Of a stretch of 53,730 nt of DNA, positions 1-53,730 are shown piece after piece. How positions within the stretch are numbered: position 1 is the first letter of the stretch; every line of letters starts with the position of its first letter. The stretch covers positions 1 to 53,730 of the IMG/VR virus record IMGVR_UViG_3300003319_000115, one strand, 5' to 3'. The notes beneath the pieces are model-generated. The model was not told where the DNA came from, ran no database searches, and saw only the letters and a program-made list of their open reading frames with translations. The stretch is from a virus. The translations under genes and the position numbers were made by a program.

Positions 1-24
1 CAAGCTTCCTGTCCAAAAGCTACG
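1..24. repeat. 24-bp terminal repeat joining the two window ends
   Basis: Bases 1-24 are identical to bases 53707-53730. The polymerase reading frame that leaves the right end continues in the correct frame from base 2. The simplest reading is a circular (or circularly permuted) genome cut at an arbitrary point, not a physical terminal repeat. Confidence 0.9.
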
Positions 25-436
25 CGATGGAAAGGTCACTACGAACGAGGACGCAATCGTATATCTCATTGGCTACGCAAAAGGAAAAGCCGAAAGCTAT
101 AAAACTATACAATATAAAAACCAATGGCTTCTTATCGAAGCTATTCTTCGCGGTATCTTGGAAATTAGAGGCATTCGTCAGTTGTTGTCGAATTATATTC
201 TCGCCCGCATTTCCGCAGACAACAGAATTCGTTCTACTTATAAAGTCGCCGGGCCGGAAACAGGTCGTTGGGCCGCTGAACATTTTGTTGATGGATCAGG
301 AAACAACGCTCAGACATTCCCTAGAGGTCACGTCGAATTAACAGAAGGAGAAATGGCGGATGTTGAGAAGTTACTTAAAGAGCTTGAGAGTGAGGTTGAA
401 GAGGATCAAGAAGAACTTGAAGAAGAATATGCATAA
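1..436 (+). CDS. polA: UDG-like/DNA polymerase I N-terminal half (3' end of the gene starting at 52427)
   Basis: This is the continuation across the circle junction of the gene that begins at 52427; the whole product would be 571 residues. This part supplies the thumb and start of the palm of a family A polymerase. The conserved nucleotide-strand motif GPETGRWAAEHF followed by NNAQTFPRG (about residues 511-536, equivalent to TGR-SS-PNLQNIP) is visible. Immediately after it, where a normal polymerase runs on into motif A, the chain instead enters a very acidic Glu/Asp-rich tail of about 35 residues and stops at 436. The rest of the polymerase is a separate gene at 550. Overlap of 8 bases with the next small gene suggests translational coupling. 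Confidence 0.85.
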   Translation, partial: KLPVQKLRDGKVTTNEDAIVYLIGYAKGKAESYKTIQYKNQWLLIEAILRGILEIRGIRQLLSNYILARISADNRIRSTYKVAGPETGRWAAEHFVDGSGNNAQTFPRGHVELTEGEMADVEKLLKELESEVEEDQEELEEEYA

Positions 437-560
437 ACATGCTGGTTATGTGGTTACTTGGTATGCAATGGGAAGGTTAAGAGTCGGGCTTAAGTGTAGT
501 GAGTGTGGAGCTATAGTCGGACAAGATTGGGTACCTGAACATATTTTCGATGAAAATTAA
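429..560 (+). CDS. Small putative zinc-binding protein lying in the polymerase split
   Basis: A 43-residue frame that overlaps the polymerase N-half stop by 8 bases and the C-half start by 11 bases, so the three frames form a coupled chain. It contains one CSECG (CxxC) pair and several His residues near its start (MHKHAG), compatible with a small zinc ribbon. It is not part of the canonical polymerase sequence. It could be a remnant of whatever element split the polymerase gene. No function is claimed. Confidence 0.5.
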   Translation: MHKHAGYVVTWYAMGRLRVGLKCSECGAIVGQDWVPEHIFDEN

Positions 561-1395
561 AATCCGCTCCATGATAGTCGCACCTCCTGGTAAAGTTCTA
601 CTAATGTGTGACTTATCTCAAGCTGAATCGTGGGTAGTAGCATACTTAGCTAACGAACCACGGATGAAACATGCTTTGCAATACGGAGATATTCATACGG
701 AGACAGCGGGTAGTGCAATATTCTTTCCATACGGATGTAGTCATAATTGGGATAAAGATTTACGAACGTGTAGTGTTTGCGGTAATGTTGTTACAACTGA
801 GATGCGGTACATCGGAAAGAGATGGAATCATGCTTCTGCATACCGTATGAAACCTGCGCGGGCTGCACAAGTAGTAAATAAGGACAGCGACCAGCCCCCT
901 TATGTAACTATCACCGTTGCACAATCAACCGAATACAGTAAGGCTTGGCATTCCTACTATAACCTCAAACCGTGGTGGGGTGAAATTGAGTACCAACTTG
1001 GAGTTAACCGCACTATGGTTACTCCTTATGGTCGTAAGAGGACTTTCTTTGGTGGATGGGGAGATGAGTTATTCAAAGAAGCAACCGCGTTTGTACCACA
1101 ATCAACGGTTGCGGATCATTTTAATGGTGCTGTGCAACCTGAACTTGGTATTAGTGGGGGTTTGCTTAGTATTTATACTAATATTGTTCTACCAAATCCA
1201 GAAATTAAACTAATCAACCAGAGTCACGATAGTTGTATGTTGGAAGTTCCACAGAGTAGTTACGTTGAAGTAGCCCAACAAATGAAGAGTTACTTATTCC
1301 GCCCGATTATCATTAACGGAGAAACTTGTTCCATTCCAGTTGATTGCGAGGTTGGTGAACGTTGGGGAGAACTAGAGAAACTAAAGGTGGCTTAA
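550..1395 (+). CDS. polA: DNA polymerase I palm/fingers (C-terminal half of a split polymerase)
   Basis: 281 residues holding the catalytic core of a family A DNA polymerase. Motif A is DLSQAE (residues 21-26) with the first metal-binding Asp. Motif B in the fingers is RYIGKRWNHASAYRM (about 86-100). Motif C is HDS (226-228), where HDE is usual. The beginning, KIRSMIVAPPGK, is the normal continuation of the NNAQTFPRG motif that ends the upstream half, so the split falls between two adjacent conserved blocks. Between the DIHTETAG helix and motif B is an insert with C63, H65, C74 and C77, a likely small zinc ribbon. The two halves probably associate to form one polymerase. All key catalytic residues are present. 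Confidence 0.9.
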   Translation: MKIKIRSMIVAPPGKVLLMCDLSQAESWVVAYLANEPRMKHALQYGDIHTETAGSAIFFPYGCSHNWDKDLRTCSVCGNVVTTEMRYIGKRWNHASAYRMKPARAAQVVNKDSDQPPYVTITVAQSTEYSKAWHSYYNLKPWWGEIEYQLGVNRTMVTPYGRKRTFFGGWGDELFKEATAFVPQSTVADHFNGAVQPELGISGGLLSIYTNIVLPNPEIKLINQSHDSCMLEVPQSSYVEVAQQMKSYLFRPIIINGETCSIPVDCEVGERWGELEKLKVA

Positions 1396-1575: not shown

Positions 1576-1905
1576 ATGAAACTAACTAAAACAGTAACTA
1601 GAGTAGAAATGGAAGATGCCATATACAACCCACCGTGGTATATGGGTAAAGCCCACACGGATTTTGATAGAGATACAATTACATATACAGTCATTCCTTT
1701 CAATGTAATTGTAGCTTTTATCAATTACCTACTTATTCAAATTCGATTTCGTTTACCTATAAATTTACAAGAAGCTGAAAAACACAATTATTATCAATTA
1801 GGTTACAAAAGGGGTTTCGAAAACGGTTGCATTAAGGGTGCTGCTGACGCTAGTGCTCATTGGACAGACAGAGTAAAAAATGGCTTACCAAAGAAAATGT
1901 CCTAA
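1576..1905 (+). CDS. Hypothetical protein with one hydrophobic segment
   Basis: 109 residues, starting 3 bases after the previous stop. A hydrophobic stretch (about residues 38-56, VIPFNVIVAFINYLLI) could be a membrane helix and is followed by a polar, Tyr/Asn-rich C-terminus. It overlaps the next gene by 26 bases, consistent with coupled translation. The family is not recognised. Confidence 0.65.
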   Translation: MKLTKTVTRVEMEDAIYNPPWYMGKAHTDFDRDTITYTVIPFNVIVAFINYLLIQIRFRLPINLQEAEKHNYYQLGYKRGFENGCIKGAADASAHWTDRVKNGLPKKMS

Positions 1906-3049
1906 CTGGCTAGAGAGTTTTATAACGTGGTCAATGCCGAGAAGTGAAGCACCTTCGACCTTCATCCTCTGGACGGGATTATTCACGTTATCCTCCGCAC
2001 TTAGACGTAGAGTACAAGTTCCCAAAACACTTCTTGGCGGTTGGGCTGCACCACCAAATTTATACGTTATCTTTGTAGCACCACCCGGTAAAGCACGTAA
2101 GTCTACAACTGCCGGTTATGCAGATGACTTACTTGACGATGTGCCGGGGATTACACGTTCCTCCACTAGCACCAGTCAAGCCGCTTTAATGAAAAAGATT
2201 GCAGACACGGATGATAGCTCTATTTCCATCCTCTCGTCCGAGTTTGCAACCTTTATCCTTAAATCCGGCCTTGATATGTTCGACTTCCTAACCGATATCT
2301 ACGATGGCAAAAAATCTATTACAAACGAAACCATCGGACGTGGATTTGAGTTCGCGAATAAACCCTGCATTAATATGCTCGCTGCAACAACTCCTGAATG
2401 GATTGCAACAGGAATGCCAGAGAGCGTTATTGGAGGAGGGTTTGCGTCGAGAGTCATCTTCATCTATGAAGATAAGGTCCGCAGACGGCAACTTATTTAT
2501 AAGAATCTCGATTATACCGGAATTAACAGACTTCACGATGATCTTAAATCGGACTTGATTCACATTGCAACGAACATTGCAGGGGATTTTGCGTTCGATA
2601 ACGTATTAACAGAACAATGGATTAACAATTGGTACGTAGAAAACGCTGACAAACTACCGCCTGAACAGTACAAACTCCACGGTTATTACGAACGAAAGCC
2701 CGCTCATATCTTAAAAGTAGCCCAGCTTCTACATGTTGCTTATTCAGATGAACTTGTTCTTACTCAAAAAGATTTAGAAAACGCCATTACAATACTAGAA
2801 CAAGTCGAAAAGAATCTACCAAAAGCATTTAACATGATTGGTAAAAATCGTTACACTGTAGACATGAGACGTATTCTTGAATACATTCAAGAAAAGAAAA
2901 AGGTTGGACGTCGAGAACTGCTTAGTAATTTCTACCAAGCAGCGACACCCAACCTTTTAAACGAACTAGTTGCGGGCTTAATTCAAATGGGAGCAGTAGT
3001 TAGTGAATATAACCGAGAGGAAGAAGAAGCCTATTACATAGCAGTATAA
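1880..3049 (+). CDS. DUF3987-like P-loop protein (putative phage replication ATPase)
   Basis: 389 residues. Residues about 62-75 read VIFVAPPGKARKSTT, a Walker A-like loop in the arrangement seen in DUF3987/YfjI-type proteins. A segment FATFILKSGLDMFDFLTDIYDG and a later MLAATTPEWI, then a GGGFASR arginine-finger-like stretch, also match that family's layout of sensing and finger elements. The C-terminal 100 residues are helical and could be a winged-helix DNA-binding part. These proteins are usually linked to phage or mobile-element replication as helicase/primase-associated ATPases; that role is inferred. It is the last plus-strand gene, and only 2 bases separate its stop from the stop of the converging late block. 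Confidence 0.7.
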   Translation: MAYQRKCPNWLESFITWSMPRSEAPSTFILWTGLFTLSSALRRRVQVPKTLLGGWAAPPNLYVIFVAPPGKARKSTTAGYADDLLDDVPGITRSSTSTSQAALMKKIADTDDSSISILSSEFATFILKSGLDMFDFLTDIYDGKKSITNETIGRGFEFANKPCINMLAATTPEWIATGMPESVIGGGFASRVIFIYEDKVRRRQLIYKNLDYTGINRLHDDLKSDLIHIATNIAGDFAFDNVLTEQWINNWYVENADKLPPEQYKLHGYYERKPAHILKVAQLLHVAYSDELVLTQKDLENAITILEQVEKNLPKAFNMIGKNRYTVDMRRILEYIQEKKKVGRRELLSNFYQAATPNLLNELVAGLIQMGAVVSEYNREEEEAYYIAV

Positions 3050-3051
3050 CT

Positions 3052-6000
3052 CTACTTCCTCTTAGGTGTGTTACCAGTCCATTGATCCACCACACTAGCT
3101 GGACCTCTCTCATAACCTAAACCTAATCCAATACCTGTATTAACTTCCTCAAGTTTTAACTTATAATACTCTCCACTATCATCAATGGTGGGAACGCTAA
3201 TCGTGTAGCCTTCGCGCACGATTTCGTCCCACCAATTTTTATTTTGTTCATCTACGCGCGCACCTAAAGCTTGGCCCGCTACTTGATATCCCAAGTAACC
3301 ATTTTGCCACATTTCAAAAGCCCGCCACCAACCACTAACTGCGGAGTAGCCGGGAACCATTAAGGTCGCGTTGCGTAACAAGTTCTTCCTACCTGCCGTA
3401 GCAATAAACTCATTATCGTTTGTTGCGTCTCTAGCATTCTGATATGCAGTTACGAGAGGACCACCACCAAACAAGAGTGAGTTTGGTGTAGTCATCCAAC
3501 CGGATAAGTTAAATCCAGTAACAGCGTCGGCAGCGCGTAGAGCGATTTGAACTTCTGAAAACCTACGCATTCTTCCTACACGTTCTCCTAAATCCCCCAA
3601 CGTTGCTAACTTTCCTACAAATCTACTTTGCCACGCTGTCCATTGACCAAACTGACCAAACACTTTACCAGCTAACTTATCCCAACCTAAGGGATGGTTC
3701 ATGGCCCCATACACAAATCCTGTTTGTGCCCCATTAACACGCGCTAAGAACTTAGCGGCGTCTTGATATTGTTGCTTAGTGATAAGCCGGTCGAACTCTA
3801 GTTGAACGGAAGGATCGAAGGCGCTTAGACCAATCTTTTTATACACTTGCGCTTTATTCTCACTCCCATTCACTAATCCCTTCAACGCTTCCGCCGTGTT
3901 CGTAAACGATTCTAGGAACGCCGCCGAATGAAAGTTGTCATAAGCAGTTTTCTGCATCGAACCCGTAAACATGACATTCATGTAACCTTCCATGAGGCCA
4001 CGCCCAAACTCACGAACAACTCCGGGTTGTTCACCGGGAACGGAGAATTCAATAGGACTGAATTCACCAAATTGACCGGATTTCTTAAAGGCTTCCCGGA
4101 GTTCCCTCATTTCTCCGGTAGGTGCTAGGTACTTCAACAACCTTCTCGTTCTCTCCAATCCATGTAATGCATAATAGTTACCAATCATTCCTACAAAGTC
4201 ACGCGCACCTGCAACTGGACGTAAACCCTGTGCAGAAGCTTCAGCAATACCAATGTAGCGATTGAAGGTTTTACTGAACAGTTCAGCAACGTCTTTGGGA
4301 CTACGCTGGATACCTAACGTTTTTAAGAACTCCGAAGTATGCTCTGCCGTAGCATCAGCAATACGCTTACTACGGCCCGCCATACCTTCTAAGTAATCTA
4401 CCATCCTTGTCTCGATCTGTTGTGCATTCTTAGGTGCAGTAAGAGCAATACGTTTTACTTCTGCACTTATAGCATTCTTAGCATTGTTCCATGCTTCATT
4501 AAAGCCAAGCTCCTTTTTAATCGCACCAGTAGCATAACGAACTAACAGAGACATTGGATCTCTGTCAAGCATGTCGTTATTTAGCTCACCAGTGCGTATG
4601 AGTTCGCTAACAAACTCGTCAGGGCGACGCGACTTTAAAATATCTTCCTCAATAATAGCATCAGGGAATTGTCTATAGTGAGGAATGTACACTCTGATAA
4701 TGCGATCTTCTGCAATACCAGTAAGTTTGCTCAAGTCTCTAAAGTGGTCATCAAGCATCCGTGCAGCAACAGTAAATCTACCTTTAAGGTGTTCGGGAAC
4801 ACGTTGCTTAAGAAACTCATCTCGCGTAAGCCCAAACTTAGGGTCAAGTGCTTGTGCATAACGAGTAATAGCTAATAGAGAACTAGTATTCATATTACTA
4901 GCTGTTACTCGTTGAAACATTTCAAATGCTTTCATATGTAAGTCGTCCATTTGCATTTGATCTTTATGGACAGACATTACAGCTTGGAAAGCTTCAGGTT
5001 CTAATCCACGCTTCTCAGCATTGATATAAGCACGACGATACTTGAATACTTTATCAAGATCCACCTTGTTATCATACAACCATTGACCATCAGTAACTTC
5101 CTGTTTGGTCATTGAGCGGTGGAGGAGAGACGAGCGAACCTCGTTAGCACTAAGGGTTTCGGTGTAATCAAGTAAAAGTGCCCGCTCAGCACTAGTCATT
5201 CCCTTTAATACGTTGTCTAAGGGAAGGAACTTAACTTTCAGAGGTGTTACCTTACTAACATATTGTCTATGCAATACTTGTAAGCTATCGAATACTCTTG
5301 CGTAAAGACTTGTACGATACGTGTTATCAATAGATTTAAAATAATCGCCTCTAGCTGTTAACCAGGGTAAGCGAATATTGAGATAGTCAGCAATACCACC
5401 CAAGAACTTACTACCATAATTCGCTTCAAAGGGTTGCTCATACGCTTTAGGATACCTAACAGGCATACTCGGAGGTAACACAACTCCATCAGGAACAGGA
5501 GAATCAACAAGATCAATATTCTTCTCTTGTCCTGATTTATTAACAAACGCTAATGCTTCTTCACCGTTGCTGAACTTTTCCAGTACCTTCCCATCTTGTA
5601 CTCTCCTTAATATCACACCCCCACCCGGAACCATGTCGAAGTACATATTGTTCGTAATGGTAGCTACACTAAGTCTAGACGCAACCTCAGTATTAGCATC
5701 AATGTGACGTTGACGCTCCTCTAAGAGTCGGTCTATAGTAGCTTTGAGAACTGCGTGTTCTTCGTCGGGCAGTAGCTTTTCGAGACGTTTATTAAATCTA
5801 CTAACAAACTCATTTCTTAACGCAGGTATATCAGCTTGTGTGAATCCCTTTTCCTGCACAAAGGACTCAAACAAGTTATTGAAATTTATGCTAGCTGAAC
5901 CCCTTAACTTATCATACGCTTCTGCTAGCTGAGAAATCGTATGATAGAACTCAGCAAAGTATTGATTCAAAACTCTATCATACTTATCTTGAAGCTTGTT

Positions 6001-8961
6001 CTTTAATGGTGTAATCTTCACACCATCCATTTCTTGCTTGAGAACAAGTAGGCGGGCTCTTGCTGCATCACTGCCGGGAGCGGGCGTTGGTGTTGCCTGC
6101 TTAACACTTTGTAGCTCTGATACATTCTTATTAACATCACCTTTACCTAACTCAAACTCCAAACGGTCAATATCATTAGTTGATGTACTCAAGCTTTTGA
6201 TCGTTCCTAGTACACCAAAATCCTGATTCTTTAACAAACTCGTGTCACCAATCAACTCGCTAACAGCACCAGCAACTTGCTTGAATCGCTTGTCGAAGAA
6301 TTCTGTTTCACCAATACGAGGACTTTCTCTATTTCTAATTGCGCCATAATCATCATACAGCTTGGCTAAAGCTTCATTCAAATCTTTGTACTTTGAAATA
6401 TAATAATTAGCAATATCACTCGGTGACCCTGTGTACCAAGTTCTAATTGCTTCACGGTCGAATGCGTCTTTTTCTTTGTAATTAAGCTTAAGGTCTTGAG
6501 TAATATTTCTAAGTAAATTATCACTATCTACAGAAGGATGTGATAATCCTTCCAACAGGGTATTAATATCAACTTTCGCCACTGTACCTCTAGCTAATAC
6601 ATATTCAACTACATCCCCACCTAAACCGATAATATAGTTTAGTTGGGGATTTTGCGTTTCTGCTGGTCCAACTTTCTTAGGTTCAGCTAAACCTAATGAT
6701 ACTAAAGCATCGTGTTTTCCTCTTTCAAAATTAGGATTCTTAGTACCATTTCCCTCTTTTAAATATCCAATCATCTCTGGTTGAACTTTCAAAGCACCAA
6801 CGTCAACTAGTTCTGTAACAATTCCACCAATATAAGTCATGTTCAACAACCGTAGTGCTTCTGTATCATTTGGCACTATCTTATTAAAATGATCGTACAA
6901 TGAATCTAATGCTTCATTAATGGATTTTCTAGAATTAAGATAATGTGTAACAATACGCACACCGTCACCAGTTAACCATACTTCTGTATCATCGTGGGTT
7001 AATGGTGTTGCAATCTTTTCTCCTTCGGTCTTGCTTATAATATGTGCAATAACAGTTTCTCTATCAAGCCCCATCTCAGGGTCATTAATTGCTTCATTTA
7101 AGATATCAAATGGAGCATAGTTAAGTAACATCCTTTGTTGTTGATTTTTATCTAAATTACCATAACGCAACATGAAATTTGTGTAACGCTTAGACCCCTT
7201 AAATTCTTTACCAACAACACTCCCCTTCGCCATCTTAGCCTTCAATGCTTCCAACTTCGCTTCAACAGTATTTGGAGAGCGAGGAATAATTGTAGCTTGT
7301 GCAGCATTGGGAACGTCGCGGATGTCGTTGTGCTTGACTGAAAGCTCATTACCCTCACTGTCCTTCAACTTAATAACGTCACCATCTTGACCCTGAACAA
7401 AATACGACTTCCCATTAACAGAAACTTCCTCTTGCGGAATAAAGCCCGTTCGTTGAAAGAACTCAATGTGCCCAGTTGGTGTATTCTTATCTGCAATCAA
7501 TACATCAAACGTACCATCAGCATTCTTTCTGCTGATTCCTTGGCGCACGTTCTTAACAACATCATCATCCTCTAGTTTGGGAGGATTATTTATCAACTCC
7601 TTTAATTCTGCTTCCTCTCTAATTAAATTACTTTCCAACCTTGCCCGATCAGCAGCAAATTCTACAGTACCAGCAGCTTTAATTGCTTTGATGTCAGCAA
7701 TAATACGTTCCTTAATGTCTATCTCATCTTCATATGCTTGATACTTAGCTGCCCCCTTTTCTGTGAACAATGTCTCTGCGTGAGCAAAACTAGAAGCAAT
7801 ATCAGCAGATTGCACACCACGAACGATCTGTGCTCCCGGTATGCGTAACTTACCAGTGATTACAGCTTGAGCTAGATTATCAGCTGTAGCTATCGCCTCT
7901 AACTTCGCTGTACCAGAATTGATACTATCATCAATGTAAAGCTTTAATTGACGCTCATAGAGTAAGTTACGAGCTACAGTCTGAATAAGCTCGGGAGCTT
8001 CTAGAACGTTCCTTCCTCTAACACCTTGAAAGAAATCCACCGCAAACCCTAGTGGAATTCCCATAATGGTATTAAAGACGATATTCTTAAATGCATCTTT
8101 ATTACCAGCTTCACCAACAATACCGCCCGCTAAACCACCCACTGCACCACCCACCGTATCACCGATTAGATCGCGAGCTAACTTACCTAAACGTGGACCA
8201 CGTGCAGCATTTAGTAAAGCTTCACGACCAACGGTTTGTGTTGTACCTTTTACTAAGTTCTCTGCAATTTCTTTTCCTGCTTTCCTAAACGCACTTCCAG
8301 CCAAAGCTTCCTTTGTCACCATAGAAGCTCCACCAGTAGCGAAAATCATGATACCGTCAGCAAGGGCGTCTCGCATCTTTTCAGCCCTTTCCTCGGGCTT
8401 TAAGGCCCTCAAATCCTCACCAAAGGCTGTGTTTGCGAGAGTTTCAATGGGTCGCCCAACCATCTCCAAAAGCCCCAAGCCTAACGCGGGAACCCCTTTG
8501 GCAATAGTTGATAACTTTTCATCGCTCTTAGCAAAAGAGCGAGCAGAGTTGACAAACTCTTGTGCTCCTTCCGCACCACCACTAAGAGCCTGTACTCTAG
8601 CTGGAGTAAGGTCTTGTACACCAGAAATAGTGTAATCACCAATAGCTAACAGCTTGTTATAAAGCGCTACTGTAAAATCACTATAATCAGTGTTTTGTAA
8701 GTTAGTTAAAATTTTGTATCTATCAGCCAAGGCTTGCTTATTAATCATGTAATAGCCCGGCGTAAAAGCTTGCATGGTACGGGCTAAACCTGAAATATAC
8801 GATGTAAACGTAGTACGAGGTATACTATCGTCAACTTCGTCTAAAACACTATAATCAATCTTAGTATCTACTGCTTTTCTAGTAGATGATTTTCCCGGCG
8901 CTGTTTGCTTAGGTTCTTCCTCCTCAAGAATGCTCCAATCAATAGGCTTGGGTCCAGTCAT
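3052..8961 (-). CDS. Giant internal virion/ejection protein (1969 residues)
   Basis: The largest gene and the last of the late block. It starts at the last base of the preceding gene's stop. The sequence is mostly alpha-helical, with Ala/Gly-rich amphipathic and weakly hydrophobic stretches near residues 200-300 (KDAFKNIVFNTIMGIPLG region), a mixed middle, and a C-terminal part carrying FGQFGQWTAWQSRFVGK, a type of motif common at the C-termini of huge phage internal proteins. No lytic transglycosylase, peptidase or RNA polymerase motif was recognised. Position after two smaller putative internal proteins resembles the ejection-protein sets of podoviruses. The likely role is passing into or across the cell envelope ahead of DNA. 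A coding-strand enzyme domain hidden by divergence cannot be excluded. Confidence 0.75.
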   Translation of the reverse strand: MTGPKPIDWSILEEEEPKQTAPGKSSTRKAVDTKIDYSVLDEVDDSIPRTTFTSYISGLARTMQAFTPGYYMINKQALADRYKILTNLQNTDYSDFTVALYNKLLAIGDYTISGVQDLTPARVQALSGGAEGAQEFVNSARSFAKSDEKLSTIAKGVPALGLGLLEMVGRPIETLANTAFGEDLRALKPEERAEKMRDALADGIMIFATGGASMVTKEALAGSAFRKAGKEIAENLVKGTTQTVGREALLNAARGPRLGKLARDLIGDTVGGAVGGLAGGIVGEAGNKDAFKNIVFNTIMGIPLGFAVDFFQGVRGRNVLEAPELIQTVARNLLYERQLKLYIDDSINSGTAKLEAIATADNLAQAVITGKLRIPGAQIVRGVQSADIASSFAHAETLFTEKGAAKYQAYEDEIDIKERIIADIKAIKAAGTVEFAADRARLESNLIREEAELKELINNPPKLEDDDVVKNVRQGISRKNADGTFDVLIADKNTPTGHIEFFQRTGFIPQEEVSVNGKSYFVQGQDGDVIKLKDSEGNELSVKHNDIRDVPNAAQATIIPRSPNTVEAKLEALKAKMAKGSVVGKEFKGSKRYTNFMLRYGNLDKNQQQRMLLNYAPFDILNEAINDPEMGLDRETVIAHIISKTEGEKIATPLTHDDTEVWLTGDGVRIVTHYLNSRKSINEALDSLYDHFNKIVPNDTEALRLLNMTYIGGIVTELVDVGALKVQPEMIGYLKEGNGTKNPNFERGKHDALVSLGLAEPKKVGPAETQNPQLNYIIGLGGDVVEYVLARGTVAKVDINTLLEGLSHPSVDSDNLLRNITQDLKLNYKEKDAFDREAIRTWYTGSPSDIANYYISKYKDLNEALAKLYDDYGAIRNRESPRIGETEFFDKRFKQVAGAVSELIGDTSLLKNQDFGVLGTIKSLSTSTNDIDRLEFELGKGDVNKNVSELQSVKQATPTPAPGSDAARARLLVLKQEMDGVKITPLKNKLQDKYDRVLNQYFAEFYHTISQLAEAYDKLRGSASINFNNLFESFVQEKGFTQADIPALRNEFVSRFNKRLEKLLPDEEHAVLKATIDRLLEERQRHIDANTEVASRLSVATITNNMYFDMVPGGGVILRRVQDGKVLEKFSNGEEALAFVNKSGQEKNIDLVDSPVPDGVVLPPSMPVRYPKAYEQPFEANYGSKFLGGIADYLNIRLPWLTARGDYFKSIDNTYRTSLYARVFDSLQVLHRQYVSKVTPLKVKFLPLDNVLKGMTSAERALLLDYTETLSANEVRSSLLHRSMTKQEVTDGQWLYDNKVDLDKVFKYRRAYINAEKRGLEPEAFQAVMSVHKDQMQMDDLHMKAFEMFQRVTASNMNTSSLLAITRYAQALDPKFGLTRDEFLKQRVPEHLKGRFTVAARMLDDHFRDLSKLTGIAEDRIIRVYIPHYRQFPDAIIEEDILKSRRPDEFVSELIRTGELNNDMLDRDPMSLLVRYATGAIKKELGFNEAWNNAKNAISAEVKRIALTAPKNAQQIETRMVDYLEGMAGRSKRIADATAEHTSEFLKTLGIQRSPKDVAELFSKTFNRYIGIAEASAQGLRPVAGARDFVGMIGNYYALHGLERTRRLLKYLAPTGEMRELREAFKKSGQFGEFSPIEFSVPGEQPGVVREFGRGLMEGYMNVMFTGSMQKTAYDNFHSAAFLESFTNTAEALKGLVNGSENKAQVYKKIGLSAFDPSVQLEFDRLITKQQYQDAAKFLARVNGAQTGFVYGAMNHPLGWDKLAGKVFGQFGQWTAWQSRFVGKLATLGDLGERVGRMRRFSEVQIALRAADAVTGFNLSGWMTTPNSLLFGGGPLVTAYQNARDATNDNEFIATAGRKNLLRNATLMVPGYSAVSGWWRAFEMWQNGYLGYQVAGQALGARVDEQNKNWWDEIVREGYTISVPTIDDSGEYYKLKLEEVNTGIGLGLGYERGPASVVDQWTGNTPKRK

Positions 8962-19966: not shown

Positions 19967-21713
19967 TGCCAGTCACCGCTTGAATTAGTTCACGCAATAT
20001 GATACGATCAACATTTCTAACATCAAAGGTTTCGAGAATTTGAACCATAATCTCTGTTGCACCAGACATACCCTTTTGTGCAATAAGTGCTGCTAACTGT
20101 GCATTACCAGTCAGTTGAGCTAATGACAACATTCCTGTAAGATACTGTTGGAATACAGGAGCAATTTGCAACCAGTTCTGACGGTCAAGGAGTTTGTTTT
20201 GTTGTTGTCCAGTAGTTTTAAGTTCTAACAGTAATCCATTACTAACCAACCTCTCAGGCATATTAAACAACTTTGCAACTTGACCCTCAACATCAACATA
20301 TTCAAAATATTCTACTGTACGCGGACCGAATATATGAATGTTGACTGCTGTCTTTTTAATGGAACGATCTAAGAAATCTTTGAAGTTTCCGTAGTGATAA
20401 TCAGATTTCTTCTGTCCTTCTTGAATACGAGATAAGTCGCTAGTTGCTGTACCGGGAGTACCAACTTGTGGCATCCCAAGCATTACTTCATTAACACCAG
20501 TTCGTTGTTGTAAGTAGATCAACGAACCTTGTTCGTCAGCAAAACTAGAAGGATAGATTTCTGCTAATTGGAAAGAATCAATGTGATCCATGTTATCAAC
20601 GAACCACATCTTTCCAGGCCAAATTGGTTCGTTAGGACCATACTTGCTTAAGGATGATACTTTAATCATCCTCATGTTTGCTAGTGTAGCATTATCCAAT
20701 CTTTGTCTGTGTTGAGTTGTAATCTCTCTTTGAAAATGTTCTGACTGCTTACAAACACCCATGCCCGTCCAACGATGTTCAACTGGAAAGTAGATTCCAA
20801 TCTCGTAAGGACGAGACAAATCTGCATACCAATTATAACGCACACTCATTAATGTGCGCGATTCTTTATGATAATGTACTACGATTTCTTCATCTCTACC
20901 ATCACCATCAACGTCGAATGCTAACCAGATTTCTTTCCACTGAATAGTCTTAGGCCAAACTGGCTTGATATTATCTAAGTCTTGTTGTTGCTGTTTAAAT
21001 TTATCAGGATTCTGTTGAGAATCGGCGATCCATTTTTCTAGGTTATCTCTTGTTCCTTCCTTGAAAAGTCCACCATATTCTAAGTTAATAACATCGTAAG
21101 CGGTCTTTTCGTGTTCCTCGCCAACCCACGGCGAATTCTCAGGATCACGAGCATAAAAAGGCATCAAGAAGCGTGAAATGGGTACTGCATCCATACACGC
21201 ACCTTGCTTAGTCACTACGTCAAATGTCGTTTCTTCACCATTAGGTAATGTGATAACAGCTTTCTTCACCAGCCTTTCATAACCCATTTTTCCAACACAA
21301 GTACCATACTTTACTCTCTCTAAATCTGTATCAACAACGTATTGTCTAAAGTTAATACCATACTTCAACTCATGATCGAAGAAGCGCTCAAACGGTCTAG
21401 CACTATCACTCCAATCAGGAGCTTTAGCTTGAGCAGAAACTAACTCTTTAACAGCAAATACTGTTGTAATATTACGTGCATGAACAGTCTCGACAGCAAT
21501 AGCACTTAACGGAATTTCAATTGTAGCTGCACCTTTAAATGGAAACTCAGCTAGCTCAGTAGAAGGCTGAGCCCAATAAATCTGTTGCCAACGGTTTAGG
21601 TCATCAATAAACCTGCCCCGTTCAGCATAGAAATTTTCCAATTCTGTATTGAGGTAACTGATTAATCTTTCCTCAGTATCCTCATCTAACACTAACTGTC
21701 TAGGATAAGGCAT
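19824..21713 (-). CDS. Portal protein
   Basis: 629 residues. The clues are the early LNRWQQIYWAQPSTELAEFPFKGAAT segment, a long central stem/wing region, LSRIQEGQKKSDYHYGNFKDF, and a disordered Gly/Gln/Ser C-terminus. These match the portal proteins of podoviruses, which form the dodecameric DNA gate at one capsid vertex. The gene lies two positions upstream of the scaffold and capsid genes and after terminase, the normal order. The start overlaps the HNH gene by 14 bases. Confidence 0.8.
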   Translation of the reverse strand: MPYPRQLVLDEDTEERLISYLNTELENFYAERGRFIDDLNRWQQIYWAQPSTELAEFPFKGAATIEIPLSAIAVETVHARNITTVFAVKELVSAQAKAPDWSDSARPFERFFDHELKYGINFRQYVVDTDLERVKYGTCVGKMGYERLVKKAVITLPNGEETTFDVVTKQGACMDAVPISRFLMPFYARDPENSPWVGEEHEKTAYDVINLEYGGLFKEGTRDNLEKWIADSQQNPDKFKQQQQDLDNIKPVWPKTIQWKEIWLAFDVDGDGRDEEIVVHYHKESRTLMSVRYNWYADLSRPYEIGIYFPVEHRWTGMGVCKQSEHFQREITTQHRQRLDNATLANMRMIKVSSLSKYGPNEPIWPGKMWFVDNMDHIDSFQLAEIYPSSFADEQGSLIYLQQRTGVNEVMLGMPQVGTPGTATSDLSRIQEGQKKSDYHYGNFKDFLDRSIKKTAVNIHIFGPRTVEYFEYVDVEGQVAKLFNMPERLVSNGLLLELKTTGQQQNKLLDRQNWLQIAPVFQQYLTGMLSLAQLTGNAQLAALIAQKGMSGATEIMVQILETFDVRNVDRIILRELIQAVTGNGNGLNQISQSGGSQGLILPGQNGGMGAINQAIPTFASPSYAGNGRV

Positions 21714-22113
21714 GTTCCTTCTTATGACAAGATTGACAAAGGAACTCTAAGTTGTTTAAATCAAGAGCGCGCAAAGGGTGAGTGTAAATACGAAGCTTAT
21801 GATGAGCGTGGTGACCCACACAGCCACAACGATTACAGAGTCCAACATAACGCTCACGGCAACTCTGCCTAAGTATTTTCCAGGCTTCGCTCTGATAGAA
21901 TTTAGTACGTAACTTAAGATAGACATACTTTAGTTTCTTCTCGGATATACGACCTTTCCTATACAGTTCTTTATGTAACTCGATTTCTTCTAAGATTCTA
22001 AATGCTACGTCAAGAGGACCACGATAAGTTATACCACCCTTAACGGAAGCCTTCTTAGCACTAGAATCTAGTTTCTTTCTGTAAGCTGATATGTACTCTG
22101 AGTAACTCGCCAT
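21700..22113 (-). CDS. HNH endonuclease
   Basis: About 137 residues. The C-terminal half has a complete ββα-metal HNH site: LCNRCG (CxxC), then HHAHHKLRIYTHPL with the catalytic HH, the Asn in LDLNNLEFLC, and LCQSCHKKEH (CxxC and final His). The N-terminal half is basic and helical. HNH proteins near terminase and portal genes occur either as free-standing homing endonucleases or as helpers of DNA packaging. The 14-base overlap with the portal gene suggests co-translation. An in-frame GTG at 22122 would add three residues. Confidence 0.8.
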   Translation of the reverse strand: MASYSEYISAYRKKLDSSAKKASVKGGITYRGPLDVAFRILEEIELHKELYRKGRISEKKLKYVYLKLRTKFYQSEAWKILRQSCRERYVGLCNRCGCVGHHAHHKLRIYTHPLRALDLNNLEFLCQSCHKKEHALS

Positions 22114-22122
22114 TCTAGCCAC

Positions 22123-48032: not shown

Positions 48033-48106
48033 ACCCCGATAGCTCAGTCGGTTAGAGCAACTGACTTTTAATCAGTAGGTCGTGGGTTCGATTCCCACTC
48101 GGGGTA
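48033..48106 (+). tRNA. tRNA-Lys (anticodon TTT)
   Basis: Complete cloverleaf of 74 bases: acceptor ACCCCGA/TCGGGGT with A discriminator, D-arm AGCTCAG...GAGC, anticodon loop CTTTTAA, T-arm GTGGGTTCGATTCCCAC. No encoded CCA. Reads Lys AAA/AAG. Confidence 0.95.
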
Positions 48107-48779
48107 TTTGATGGGGTAGCACACAGCGAACGTCTGACTAACTAGTAGCTGTGTGGAAACGTAGTCTTGTCAACTACGGGTGAAGGAAACGTCTCATAAA
48201 CGTAACCCTTCCTACCCACACTTTTTGGTTAGTTATACTCAGTTAGCGTATCAAGAGGGTATTGGCCCGCATAATCCAATGTAAGTTACCAGGCCGTTAG
48301 CTATAACTAACCATTAACTTAAGTGTGTAATCGAGATGGCGCACAGTAGGTTACTACGAGCACCCTCGTTGCGCGACCTCCGTATGGCGTCGTAAGGGTT
48401 AGTTAACGTTAACGACGTACCTCTAACTACCCTCCCTTCTCTTACACACTAGTTAAGCGTCTACCCTTATGTAATGTTGGGGAACTAGGCTAACATCTAG
48501 TGAAAATTAGCCCGCTTAACTTTAATTTCGTTCCCATTCGACTAGCGGTAAGTCGCCCCGTAAATAGCGTAGTGCTGCGACCACGTTCGGGCTTAATAGG
48601 TGCTGATCCTGCGCGCGGGACAGCAAATACCTATATGAGTACATATCCGTGGTGAGGGAAACGCCGTTTTCGATAGCGGCATGGGAATTTGGTGATGTGT
48701 CAGTAGCATAACGCGAGATAGTGTGGCCTAAGCCTAACGGCAGATGGGTAGAATCCCACTCTGACTATCACCAAAATAA
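48107..48779 (+). ncRNA. Array of six closed, branched RNA modules between tRNA-Lys and tRNA-Gln
   Basis: 673 gene-free bases between two intact tRNAs. Closing stems: module 1 GGGTAG/CTACCC (48114/48212) holding CACACAGC/GCTGTGTG, CGTAGT/ACTACG and GAAGG/CCTTC; module 2 GGTTAGTTATA/TATAACTAACC (48227/48302; 11 bp); module 3 AGTGTGTAA/TTACACACT (48322/48442; 9 bp) with ACGAG/CTCGT and CGTCGT/ACGACG inside; module 4 AGTTAAGCG/CGCTTAACT (48451/48513; 9 bp) with GGCTAA/TTAGCC; module 5 TTCCCAT/ATGGGAA (48531/48681; 7 bp) with CGACT/AGTCG and TAGGTGCTG/CAGC-ACCTA; module 6 GGTGAT + GTCAG/CTGAC + ATCACC (48691/48772). None is a normal tRNA. Best seen as one large ornate phage RNA, of the general kind known as GOLLD or ROOL, but membership is not proved. 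Confidence 0.75.
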
Positions 48780-48851
48780 TCCCCACTCGTATAATGGTCA
48801 TTACACTGGACTTTGGCTCCGGGGATAATGGTTCGATTCCATTGTGGGGTA
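48780..48851 (+). tRNA. tRNA-Gln (anticodon TTG)
   Basis: 72-base cloverleaf: acceptor TCCCCAC/GTGGGGT (first pair is a T-T mismatch), anticodon stem CTGGA/TCCGG with loop CTTTGGC, T-arm AATGGTTCGATTCCATT. No encoded CCA. Reads Gln CAA. Confidence 0.85.
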
Positions 48852-48855
48852 TCTA

Positions 48856-49095
48856 ATGGACTACAATAACTTAATAGCTTGTATCTACTACGATACAAAT
48901 GTCATAGAAATACTTGATCCACAAGAACCTGATATAAGAGTTATAATAGACTTACTCGGACTTGAAAATATACATTATGATAGAAATTACTTATTCAAAC
49001 TAGCCCGAGGCATTTTGAAGTTTGCAAAGGTTCCTCATGTACCATCGCCATTAATGGGAATGAAATATAATAACACTTACATTGATGAACTATGA
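48856..49095 (+). CDS. Hypothetical 79-residue protein
   Basis: ATG at 48856, four bases after the tRNA-Gln 3' end; a longer frame from 48844 would run back into the tRNA. Mixed alpha/beta, overlaps the next gene by 4 bases. The family is not recognised. Confidence 0.55.
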   Translation: MDYNNLIACIYYDTNVIEILDPQEPDIRVIIDLLGLENIHYDRNYLFKLARGILKFAKVPHVPSPLMGMKYNNTYIDEL

Positions 49096-49280
49096 ATATT
49101 CCTGCCGAAGAATTAAATTATGTTATTCGCATTGAACAACGTTCTAGATTTTACCTAGATGCATTACGCTCTCAACTTCCTATTCCCGTATTTGCAACTA
49201 AAGAAGAAGAAATCGAAGAACATAGAAAAATCTTAGATGCTTATTGTAAAACTTGGTTAAGTTATAGGGATAAGTTATGA
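49092..49280 (+). CDS. Small helical protein
   Basis: 62 residues, two helices (NYVIRIEQRSRFYLDALRSQL, EEIEEHRKILDAYCKTWL). ATGA overlaps on both sides. The family is not recognised. Confidence 0.55.
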   Translation: MNIPAEELNYVIRIEQRSRFYLDALRSQLPIPVFATKEEEIEEHRKILDAYCKTWLSYRDKL

Positions 49281-49522
49281 AGAAAACATTAATCATTGAC
49301 GTAATTTGTCCTCAATGTAAAGCAAAAGACAATGAAGTAGAAATAGAAATCACTGAACACGGTTATGATGGTTCCTACTTTAGCCCCGGTCATGGTTGTC
49401 AGTGGACAGTGATTAAGAATCAAGAGTGTGAACATTGTAAGCACAAGTTTACTGACGACGATCTAGAACCCTACGAAGTAGAAATCCAAATGAGATATAG
49501 TGAACCGAGTGATCCTTTATGA
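49277..49522 (+). CDS. Zinc-ribbon protein
   Basis: 81 residues: CPQC (about 11-14) and CEHC (about 51-54), with a beta hairpin between (VEIEITEHGYDGSYFSPGHG). Zinc-binding, possibly nucleic-acid-binding. Confidence 0.6.
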   Translation: MKKTLIIDVICPQCKAKDNEVEIEITEHGYDGSYFSPGHGCQWTVIKNQECEHCKHKFTDDDLEPYEVEIQMRYSEPSDPL

Positions 49523-49707
49523 GCAAACAAGACATCGAACAATTCCTAAAGAAACTAGAAGGCAAGAAAATTGGTGATGGTATTGCAGCATTTGAAGAAC
49601 AGTTGGGTATAGAATTATTGAACGAAGATAATTCACATTATGGTGTATTGTGGTTTGATGTGGTGGTGCATGATGATGGTAAACCTGGATATGTGTTAAG
49701 AGTATGA
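49519..49707 (+). CDS. Hypothetical small protein
   Basis: 62 residues, helix then beta strands; overlaps both neighbours by 4 bases. The family is not recognised. Confidence 0.5.
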   Translation: MSKQDIEQFLKKLEGKKIGDGIAAFEEQLGIELLNEDNSHYGVLWFDVVVHDDGKPGYVLRV

Positions 49708-49940
49708 TTATCTCAATTAAACGTTTCATTCTTCAACACGATTTTGAAGTAGAAACACTAATAAACACACGATACATTTTAAAGATCGAAAATACTCAAC
49801 CACATGAAGGAAAACCAACAACTAGAATCTTAATGGATTCTCTAGATAGTAGTAGAGGACCAGATATTATTTATACATACGATACGTTAGGAACAATCAA
49901 AGGTAAGGTAACCAAAGCCCGGAAGGTACAAGGTGACTAA
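49704..49940 (+). CDS. Hypothetical beta-rich protein
   Basis: 78 residues; beta strands with a KIENTQPHEGKPTTRIL stretch. Overlaps the following frame by 8 bases. The family is not recognised. Confidence 0.5.
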   Translation: MIISIKRFILQHDFEVETLINTRYILKIENTQPHEGKPTTRILMDSLDSSRGPDIIYTYDTLGTIKGKVTKARKVQGD

Positions 49941-50151
49941 CTGGATTTGCGAAATTTGTGAGATTGATTATGAATAACGTAGACGACCACACACGAAGCT
50001 ACTAGGTCGTGAAGGTCACACCTTTATCGTCTGTAAAGACTGTGGCCCGGCGGTAGCTAAACAGTTATCCGTTATGAATGATCGGGCTGAAACAGTAAGA
50101 AAAAGAAAGCGGGCTAAGACACTAACGCCTCCACCTGAGGCTATTACCTAA
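49933..50151 (+). pseudogene. Zinc-finger gene interrupted by an in-frame TAA
   Basis: From GTG 49933 one frame reads VTNWICEICEIDYE, TAA (49975-49977), then without a frame change continues to GREGHTFIVCKDCGPAVAKQ, a basic tail and a second stop at 50149-50151. The two halves hold one CxxC pair each, so together they make a zinc ribbon of 72 residues, but neither half is a sensible protein. Simplest: nonsense mutation. Readthrough is an alternative; the nearby tRNA-Leu has anticodon TAA, which decodes TTA and not TAA. Confidence 0.65.
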
Positions 50152-50160
50152 GCCTCAACA

Positions 50161-50243
50161 GCCACTATGGCGAAATCGGTAAACGCAAGAGACTTAAAAT
50201 CTCTCACCCTTTGGGTTTGTGGGTTCGAGTCCCACTAGTGGCA
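50161..50243 (+). tRNA. tRNA-Leu (anticodon TAA)
   Basis: Class II tRNA of 83 bases: acceptor GCCACTA/TAGTGGC with A discriminator, anticodon stem AGAGA/TCTCT with loop CTTAAAA, long variable arm, T-arm GTGGGTTCGAGTCCCAC. No encoded CCA. Reads Leu TTA/TTG. Confidence 0.92.
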
Positions 50244-50574: not shown

Positions 50575-51108
50575 ATGATCCGTCCAATTAAAGATCAAGT
50601 ATTTGTTAGACCAATCTTCGATCCTGATACTAGTCCAACTGGACTTATCATTATTCCCGATGAAGCTAAAGAGCGTTGTGACCAAGGCATTGTCAAGTAT
50701 GTGGGGCCTGACGTGCGAGATGTTAGAGTGGGTGATTACGTTCTATTCGGAGGATACAATGGAACGTTAATTAGGTTAACGGAACCTAATGAGTTACTTA
50801 TAGTTTTCCGTGAACCCTGGATTCATGCTATTCTAACAGACGTTGATAACATCACTGTAAACGGACTTTACTACGAAGATGTAAATTCAACTATAGATTT
50901 AGCCCGATTAATTCATAACTTTATCGTAACAAATTTGAGTGCATTACATAATGGTGTTTCATCAATAGATGAAAATGAGTTTGCTCAATACTTAGCAGAA
51001 CAAGGTTACAAGAAAATTTTCCCTGCCACTTACGAGACAGCAGTAGAGTTCCTTGCGCAAGAATTCACTAACCAGAGGAAAACGTTCGATGTCAAAACAG
51101 TTAAGTGA
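50575..51108 (+). CDS. GroES-like co-chaperonin with C-terminal extension
   Basis: 177 residues. Residues 1-83 have the GroES fold pattern: IRPIKDQVFVRPI, SPTGLIIIPDEAKERCDQG (mobile loop region), KYVGPDVRDVRVGDYVLFGGYNG and a final FREPWIHAIL. Residues 84-177 are an added alpha-helical part (FIVTNLSALHNGVSSID) not present in normal GroES. Phage GroES proteins replace or adapt host GroES to help fold capsid proteins; the extension may change partner choice. It overlaps the MazG-like gene by 20 bases. Confidence 0.8.
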   Translation: MIRPIKDQVFVRPIFDPDTSPTGLIIIPDEAKERCDQGIVKYVGPDVRDVRVGDYVLFGGYNGTLIRLTEPNELLIVFREPWIHAILTDVDNITVNGLYYEDVNSTIDLARLIHNFIVTNLSALHNGVSSIDENEFAQYLAEQGYKKIFPATYETAVEFLAQEFTNQRKTFDVKTVK

Positions 51109-52215: not shown

Positions 52216-52446
52216 ATGGCAACAATAGTAAAGCTAATTAATGGTCCGTTTCACAGCCAAGTAAGGCACGTTGAATCATGGGAAGATACAATTAAAATAG
52301 AATATGTAAGTATGCAAGATTTACATGATAGTATGTTTAAACAACAGACACCGCCAACCTATGTTGGTTGGTATGTAAGAAAGCGTAATAGTCAAACTAA
52401 TGAAATAGCTTTTTTTTGGGAACAAAATGACCCTAATAGGAAATAA
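52216..52446 (+). CDS. Hypothetical protein before the polymerase
   Basis: 76 residues; beta-rich, ending ERFFWEQNDPNRK-like charged sequence. First gene of promoter D; overlaps the polymerase start by 20 bases. Not recognised. Confidence 0.55.
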   Translation: MATIVKLINGPFHSQVRHVESWEDTIKIEYVSMQDLHDSMFKQQTPPTYVGWYVRKRNSQTNEIAFFWEQNDPNRK

Positions 52447-53730
52447 ACCAGTTCCCGGCACCGGCCCCACTAACTCCAACATTCTCCTAGTTGGTGAAGC
52501 TCCGGGCGCTGATGAGGAACGTTTAGGAGAACCATTTGTTGGTTATTCGGGCGAGTTGTTGATGAACGTATTGGGACGCAACGGTATATCCCGCAACGAA
52601 GTCCGTCTCGATAACCTTTGTCACTACCGCCCGTCATCAAATAAGTTTCAGAACCTTGTAGGTTCCAAGGAACTTGTTCAAGGAATCCTCTCCCTTCATG
52701 ATTACCTCTCCAATCACAGACCCAACATTATCATTGCGTTGGGGAGCCAGCCACTTAAATACCTCACTGGAAAGGTTGGTATTGACAGATACCGTGGTTC
52801 TTTCCTCACTACCAACTTTAAAGACATACCGCCTATTAAGGTATTACCCACATATCATCCCGCTGCCGTATTGCGTGATCGGAAGCTCTACCCGATCTTC
52901 GACTTCGACATACGTCGTGGAATTTCTGATTCGAGTTTTCCCGATTTGCGGCTACCAGAGTACAATTTTGTACTTAATCCACAAGGTCTTGAAAGAGAGG
53001 AATGGACTGAGAAGTTATGCAACGCTAGAAAGCTGGCCGTTGACATCGAGGCTGTTAAAGATTCAACTCAAATCATCTGTGTGGGATTTGCCCTGGATGA
53101 AAAAACAGCAGTAGTTTTTCCGTACGATCATAATAATTACGAGAACATTGATCGAGTTTTACGTAGTGCTGCCACTAAAGTGTTTCACTTTGGCACTTAC
53201 GATAGCATCATGTTGGAGTTAAATGGACATGAAATTAAAAATTACAGCAGAGATACGCTCGTCGGACTTCACACTATCAATCCAGAACTTCCAAAATCTC
53301 TCGCCTTTGCAACTTCTATCTACACAAGACAACCTTATTACAAAGACGATGGACGAGGTTCACTCCCTAGCGATGCGAAAGCTTGGGGCAAGAAAAGAGA
53401 CAGAAACGATGTCTATGAATATAACGCTAAAGATTGTTGCGTCACCTGGTTGATTGATGAGAGGGAGCAGGAATATATTAGTGCTGATCCTCACTTTAAA
53501 GCGACATATGAACTAGAAATAAACTTAATTCCCGTAGCCCGCAAAATGAGTAAAACGGGAATGTTAGTGGACATGAAGCGTAGAGAGATGCTAAGAGTAG
53601 CCCTCCTCAATAAGTGGGCCAAAAAGCAATTTGCCTTAGATAAGCTCGTTGGTGAATCTGTAAATGTACGCTCACCGAAACTAAAAGATATTCTCTATGG
53701 AAAGTTCAAGCTTCCTGTCCAAAAGCTACG
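52427..53730 (+). CDS. polA: UDG-like domain fused to DNA polymerase I (5' part; continues at base 1)
   Basis: Frame open to the window end and continuing at base 2 (571 residues in all). Residues 1-165 are a family-4-type uracil-DNA glycosylase domain: VGEAPGADEERLGEPFVGYSG (23-42) and PTYHPAAVLRD (141-151); the extra Cys of Fe-S family-4 enzymes are mostly missing, as in the glycosylase-like domain of phage SPO1 polymerase. Residues 180-345 are the 3'-5' exonuclease: LAVDIEA (Exo I, D206/E208), HFGTYDSIML (Exo II, D259) and YNAKDCCVT (Exo III, D336). The polymerase palm/fingers are in the separate gene at 550. Proofreading is expected to work. Confidence 0.9.
   Translation, partial: MTLIGNKPVPGTGPTNSNILLVGEAPGADEERLGEPFVGYSGELLMNVLGRNGISRNEVRLDNLCHYRPSSNKFQNLVGSKELVQGILSLHDYLSNHRPNIIIALGSQPLKYLTGKVGIDRYRGSFLTTNFKDIPPIKVLPTYHPAAVLRDRKLYPIFDFDIRRGISDSSFPDLRLPEYNFVLNPQGLEREEWTEKLCNARKLAVDIEAVKDSTQIICVGFALDEKTAVVFPYDHNNYENIDRVLRSAATKVFHFGTYDSIMLELNGHEIKNYSRDTLVGLHTINPELPKSLAFATSIYTRQPYYKDDGRGSLPSDAKAWGKKRDRNDVYEYNAKDCCVTWLIDEREQEYISADPHFKATYELEINLIPVARKMSKTGMLVDMKRREMLRVALLNKWAKKQFALDKLVGESVNVRSPKLKDILYGKFKLPVQKL
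53707..53730. repeat. Right copy of the 24-bp terminal repeat
   Basis: Identical to bases 1-24; the end of the circularly closed sequence. The polymerase frame passes through it unbroken. Confidence 0.9.

Follow-up and report, generated by a model that had tools for sequence, protein, structure and literature searches.

Family A DNA polymerases are textbook single-chain enzymes. In the Methylophilales phages MEP401 and MEP402, a family A DNA polymerase is encoded on two open reading frames (ORFs) with a small middle ORF between them (gp13, gp14 and gp15; OP830906), and the authors left the involvement of an intron open (PMC10580990). No other split family A phage polymerases were found in the literature beyond those of MEP401/402. 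For the split gene 43 of Aeromonas phages 25 and 44RR, the passage of PMC2988022 that cites Petrov et al. 2010 reports that the chains co-purify and are active. As described there, that system resembles the present one: two chains make up a replicative phage polymerase, and their coding parts are separated by a spacer or by a homing-endonuclease gene. It differs in belonging to the unrelated family B, and its split is linked to either a seg endonuclease or a spacer that is not translated, neither of which was recognised in the clade studied here. Polymerases of the UDG-exonuclease-Pol I type, e.g., PaBG gp205 (PMC7412058) and those of L004, L095 and L103 in our collection, have the same domain order and belong to the same family, but consist of one chain.

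The locus described here lies in a 53,730-nucleotide stretch of DNA, hereafter the window, which corresponds to one record of a virus of bacteria (IMG/VR record IMGVR_UViG_3300003319_000115). It shares with MEP401 a family A polymerase divided between two ORFs with a small ORF between them, and differs from it in the break point, the UDG-bearing N chain and the variable cargo of the gap. The MEP401 polymerase is cut past an IRxxF-type strand (IKTLFLSRYGE followed by MILNADAKALEW), with the PF00476 profile interrupted between positions 132 and 154, compared with 124 and 141 in L002, a relative of the window; the break in the window's clade thus lies earlier than in MEP401. By Pfam, the N chain of MEP401 has no UDG domain, whereas that of the window carries one. 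Furthermore, MEP401 is a marine member of the Zobellviridae with 34% GC, and its 77-amino-acid middle ORF is unrelated to the 43-amino-acid ORF found here.

A 24-bp direct repeat is present at both ends of the contig, which closes on itself through this repeat. When the ends are joined in this way, the N-half of the polymerase forms one clean frame with a terminal stop only, open from position 52427 across the contig ends to a TAA stop at 434–436. The C-half is an ORF of 281 amino acids at 550–1395 that starts with MKIKIRSMIVAPPGK, and between the two halves sits an ORF of 43 amino acids with the motif CSECG (429–560). All three lie on the plus strand and use three different frames, confirming what a reading made from the sequence alone (the sequence-only reading) had described as a Cys-pair frame between two polymerase halves. 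The N-chain stop overlaps the small ORF, whose ATG is at 429, and the stop of the small ORF (558–560) overlaps the ATG of the C chain at 550; with ORF ends overlapping on both sides, the locus looks like a coupled operon and not like a broken gene. No obvious Shine-Dalgarno sequence precedes the start of the C chain in the window, and translation of this chain therefore probably relies on coupling. PF00476 matches once in the whole virus record, in the C chain, and no PolB or DnaE matches were found in the record, which leaves the split family A enzyme as its only recognised DNA polymerase among families A, B and C.

The first part of the N chain (52427–53730, continuing over the circular junction) comprises a UDG-superfamily domain (PF03167, E value of 1.8e-24), a 3'-5' exonuclease and the start of the thumb. 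The exonuclease match (DNA_pol_A_exo1, PF01612, E value of 6.8e-05) falls slightly below the curated cut-off; the motifs DIE, FGTYD and YNAKD are present. The second part (1–328, of which bases 1–24 repeat the contig end) contributes thumb and the beginning of the palm up to TGR and NNAQTFPR, i.e., the thumb and the TGR/NxQ part of the palm of a family A polymerase. In Pol I, the residues of TGR and QTxPR are primer contacts. The profile phrog_17 matches positions 2–433 weakly (E value of 0.0041), and the homologous N chain of L002 matches PF00476 positions 19–124. The N-half does not end directly after NNAQTFPRG, as had been supposed, but continues for 35 mostly acidic residues (329–433); this C-terminal tail, GHVELTEGEMADVEKLLKELESEVEEDQEELEEEYA, together with the stop occupies 329–436. 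Acidic tails occur in one subclade only, that of the window, and many members of the clade stop 3–10 residues past QTxPR (e.g., QTIPRESV*, QTVPRGEI* and QTLPREEIEV*). The tail is thus dispensable within the clade, and its suggested role as a contact between the chains does not hold as a general or universal device.

The C chain (550–1395) carries the catalytic palm and fingers of a family A DNA polymerase and matches PF00476 positions 139–381 with an E value of 1.6e-15. All of its motifs are intact, namely the motif A aspartate in DLSQAE (D21), the motif B residues R86, K90 and Y98, and the motif C pair H226-D227, so that the chain has the profile match and the residues that define family A. 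Between motifs A and B, an insertion in the fingers resembles a zinc knuckle (CxH...CxxCG; 736–780, plus strand); related fingers insertions were seen in L077, L078, L081 and L083, while the remaining clade members shown lack them. In L002, the C chain corresponds to PF00476 positions 141–381 and the two chains jointly cover one polymerase. By profile alignment, the cut coincides with the short loop VRNEEGR of Klenow/E. coli Pol I, between NLQNIP and RIRQAF, and directly precedes motif A. In fused relatives, this loop comprises 2 to about 30 residues of variable sequence, which indicates that it tolerates change. Insert 2 of Pol theta presumably occupies the equivalent loop. According to a review, this insert of a family A polymerase lies in the palm; it is an insertion within one chain, in contrast to the split in the window.

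Structure prediction agrees with the assignment of the halves to one fold. For L002, AlphaFold2 was given one chain in which the in-frame TGA is read through; the resulting model shows the whole Pol I fold (pLDDT 87, pTM 0.85), its best solved matches in Foldseek are Pol I large fragments (E value of 3.5e-29), and the chain boundary falls into a low-confidence stretch at residues 575–586. The C chain of the window was modelled alone with a pLDDT of 91.8; as models of a joined L002 chain and of a lone window C chain, these predictions describe the fold and are no proof of an association of free chains.

A first scan with the C-half of the window identified L002, which has 59% identity and is cut at the same place. 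Only TGA-GAA separates its chains, the two halves share one frame that is interrupted by one TGA, and a Shine-Dalgarno-like GAAGGGGAATGAG precedes the C-chain ATG. Profile scans of a viral and a genome collection extended the clade to 29 relatives with 40–61% identity to the C chain of the window. In all 29 the break falls in the same loop, and no fused gene occurs among them, bearing out the proposed split into two ORFs; because several are nearly identical in sequence, the 29 contigs correspond to about 24 distinct lineages. Every contig is an assembly, and the relatives were assembled separately. The two-cistron arrangement is conserved among relatives. Beyond the end of the C chain lies a syntenic DUF3987 primase/helicase-like gene (1880–3049, plus strand), which also adjoins the C chain in L002, and a GroES/Cpn10-like gene (50575–51108) lies upstream of the N chain in the window and, by eye, in L002 too. 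Genome-collection scans yielded one relative, L216 (JACCVY010000265.1), a contig of a Blastocatellia MAG that encodes the same split polymerase in overlapping genes at 61% identity; it is possible that this is a clue to the host, or that phage DNA was binned with the MAG. No close relative was found in phage GenBank records (best 28%), and a tblastn search of plasmids with the N-half returned partial matches only (UdgX-type and Pol I-like) at <60% identity.

Of 74 non-redundant polymerases placed in one tree, 53 are fused, and the 15 palm-split representatives then known formed one branch (SH-aLRT 99). After ten more had been added, the palm-split polymerases again formed one branch, now of 25 representatives, with the same support of 99. 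A tree of the N part supported the clade of 15 with values of 100/99, while in the C-part tree (262 columns) it was not firmly separated from L092 and L106 (48% of bootstrap trees). This sister pair is cut elsewhere, between exonuclease and polymerase. Farther out in the tree, relatives are mostly fused; relatives that were all fused, which the sequence-only reading had named as evidence against a genuine split, are not what is seen among the closest 29. Computation thus shows a single origin of the palm split within the clade. Palm splits separate from the main clade are found in L044 and L005. In L044, the halves meet in an ATGA overlap at the same loop, and its apparent relative L020 was likewise split before a small Cys ORF entered, whereas L005, MEP401 and L215 are cut about 10–15 residues later. 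Splits between exonuclease and polymerase were noted in L041, L043, L047, L049, L050, L092, L106, L149 and L072 (Caulobacter phage Kuura). The profile coordinates of phrog_2573 and phrog_12241 fit stand-alone C-part and N-part polymerases and suggest that other split polymerases are probably in databases already.

Both chains are under strong purifying selection. Across three pairs, pN was 0.09–0.24 and pS 0.61–0.76 for both chains, and dN/dS was 0.085–0.158 where dS could be estimated, two of the pairs having a saturated dS in the C chain.

The gap between the halves varies greatly in length and content. Genes overlap in L084/085, L179 and L216; the gap measures 3 nt in L002, about 113 nt in the window, 190–670 nt in most members, 886 nt in L003/L080 and 1,241 nt in L090, and reaches 2,199 nt in L091, whose gap genes include ThyX and DUF3310, and 2,969 nt in L086, where it holds an epimerase and others. 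Recognised cargo comprises a DHH phosphoesterase (a gene of 262 amino acids in L003), ThyX, NAD epimerase, DUF3310, DUF4031, an RyR domain and small Cys-rich ORFs. A DUF3310 gene lies between the halves in seven clade members, by Pfam in L091, L166, L175, L176 and L178 and by eye in L169 and L213. Small Cys-rich gap ORFs recur as well (L020:3969–4160, L161:5562–5789, L168:5693–5869 and window 429–560), including in independently split polymerases. In the window, the 43-amino-acid CxxCG ORF gave no strong family match in profile searches and has no homologue at the same place in the nearest relatives; across the clade its position is not conserved. Its codon use is coding-like, being matched by 1.6% of stop-free off-frame sequence windows (it beats 98.4%). 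It likely encodes a small zinc-knuckle protein, and we take it as a passenger gene in the gap.

The arrangement, its conservation, the selection on both halves and the intact catalytic residues are shown by computation. Because the only recognised polymerase of the virus consists of two proteins cut in the middle of the catalytic domain, the enzyme is almost certainly built from two parts. We put at about 87% the probability that the two chains are subunits of a true family A (Pol I-like) polymerase and assemble with no covalent bond between them; the conserved split and the conserved halves lend strong sequence-level support to the two-chain polymerase that the earlier reading had suggested. 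Its ancestor would have been a single UDG-exonuclease-polymerase protein, as in most of the more distant relatives, in which a stop and a new start arose in the palm surface loop that links the NLQNIP and IRxxF strands, just before motif A. Two adjacent, probably translationally coupled cistrons would then have yielded two chains, the N chain bringing the UDG-like domain, the 3'-5' exonuclease, the thumb and the first part of the palm with TGR and QTxPR, and the C chain the catalytic aspartates and the fingers. By analogy with split T4-type polymerases, the chains may associate non-covalently, presumably through the palm core, and the assembled enzyme with its proofreading activity would replicate the phage DNA. 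With the loop no longer translated across, the gap could have become free space for unrelated small genes. We favour, with appreciably less confidence, the wider view that this is an obligate heterodimeric family A polymerase across a phage lineage, with a palm formed from two chains and a loop broken independently elsewhere (L044 with L020, and slightly downstream L005 with MEP401 and L215).

Alternatively, the halves could belong to one protein. A sequencing or assembly frameshift breaking one normal gene had been raised by the sequence-only reading, and single contigs are assemblies, but the same break with different spacers in 29 separately assembled relatives, in addition to the coupled appearance of the overlapping ORF ends, refutes such an error and leaves it a negligible probability. 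A self-splicing intron, split intein or programmed frameshift uniting the halves into one mature chain deserves somewhat more consideration. Group I introns are well known from phage DNA polymerase genes, those of the SPO1/Bastille type being examples of genes interrupted in this way, the authors of MEP401 raised an intron for their own split gene, and the halves of L002 are in frame with one TGA between them. However, Rfam searches of the window and of eleven related loci recovered no intron of group I or II, and thus none at the junction; no intein motifs were seen at N-chain ends or C-chain starts; and no homing endonuclease (HNH, GIY-YIG or LAGLIDADG) was recognisable among the spacer ORFs scanned, a negative that is less firm for the small Cys-rich ORFs, which carry no family assignment. 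The suggested tie between the split and a mobile element therefore finds no support in these searches. Gaps that extend from an overlap to 3 kb and contain complete, unrelated genes fit poorly with a conserved intron or frameshift, and this variable cargo argues against an intron in particular. Readthrough of the TGA in L002 is a minor possibility only, as in the other members the halves lie in different frames or kilobases apart. Taken together, a single mature chain appears improbable.

Two further explanations accept separate chains and differ in what these do. The split gene might be decaying or inactive, with replication carried out by the host or by another phage polymerase, and the UDG-like and exonuclease domains could indeed serve separate uses. 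This is very unlikely, given that both halves are under strong purifying selection, that the catalytic residues are conserved and that no further DNA polymerase was recognised in the record. The 43-amino-acid CxxC protein could instead be a third small subunit that bridges or regulates the halves in this phage, in keeping with its overlap-coupled position on both sides, its coding-like codon use and the small Cys-rich ORFs in the gaps of L161, L168 and the independently split L020. Yet L002, L084, L179 and L216 have no spacer, other gaps hold DHH, ThyX, epimerase, DUF3310 or DUF4031 genes, and the nearest relatives have no homologue in the gap; we regard a third subunit as doubtful, about on a par with the single mature chain.

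A palm split between two genes in about 30 viral contigs, under selection and with other genes moving into the gap, would be natural evidence that the polymerase fold assembles from two parts. If the wider view of an obligate heterodimer across the lineage is correct, the loop would represent a natural Pol I split site, the halves could be dosed separately, and the gap would offer accessory genes a place to settle. Such natural breakpoints may be of use for split-polymerase tools, e.g., induced or ligand-controlled polymerases. They also suggest caution in annotation, since phage polymerases labelled "truncated", like fragments of polA in viral databases, can represent genuine subunits and not errors.

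Elsewhere in the window, an HNH endonuclease gene (21700–22122, minus strand) adjoins the portal gene, and three tRNA genes (Lys-TTT, Gln-TTG and Leu-TAA) are located at 48033–50243. A single ORF of 1,969 amino acids (3052–8961, minus strand) probably encodes a large virion protein.
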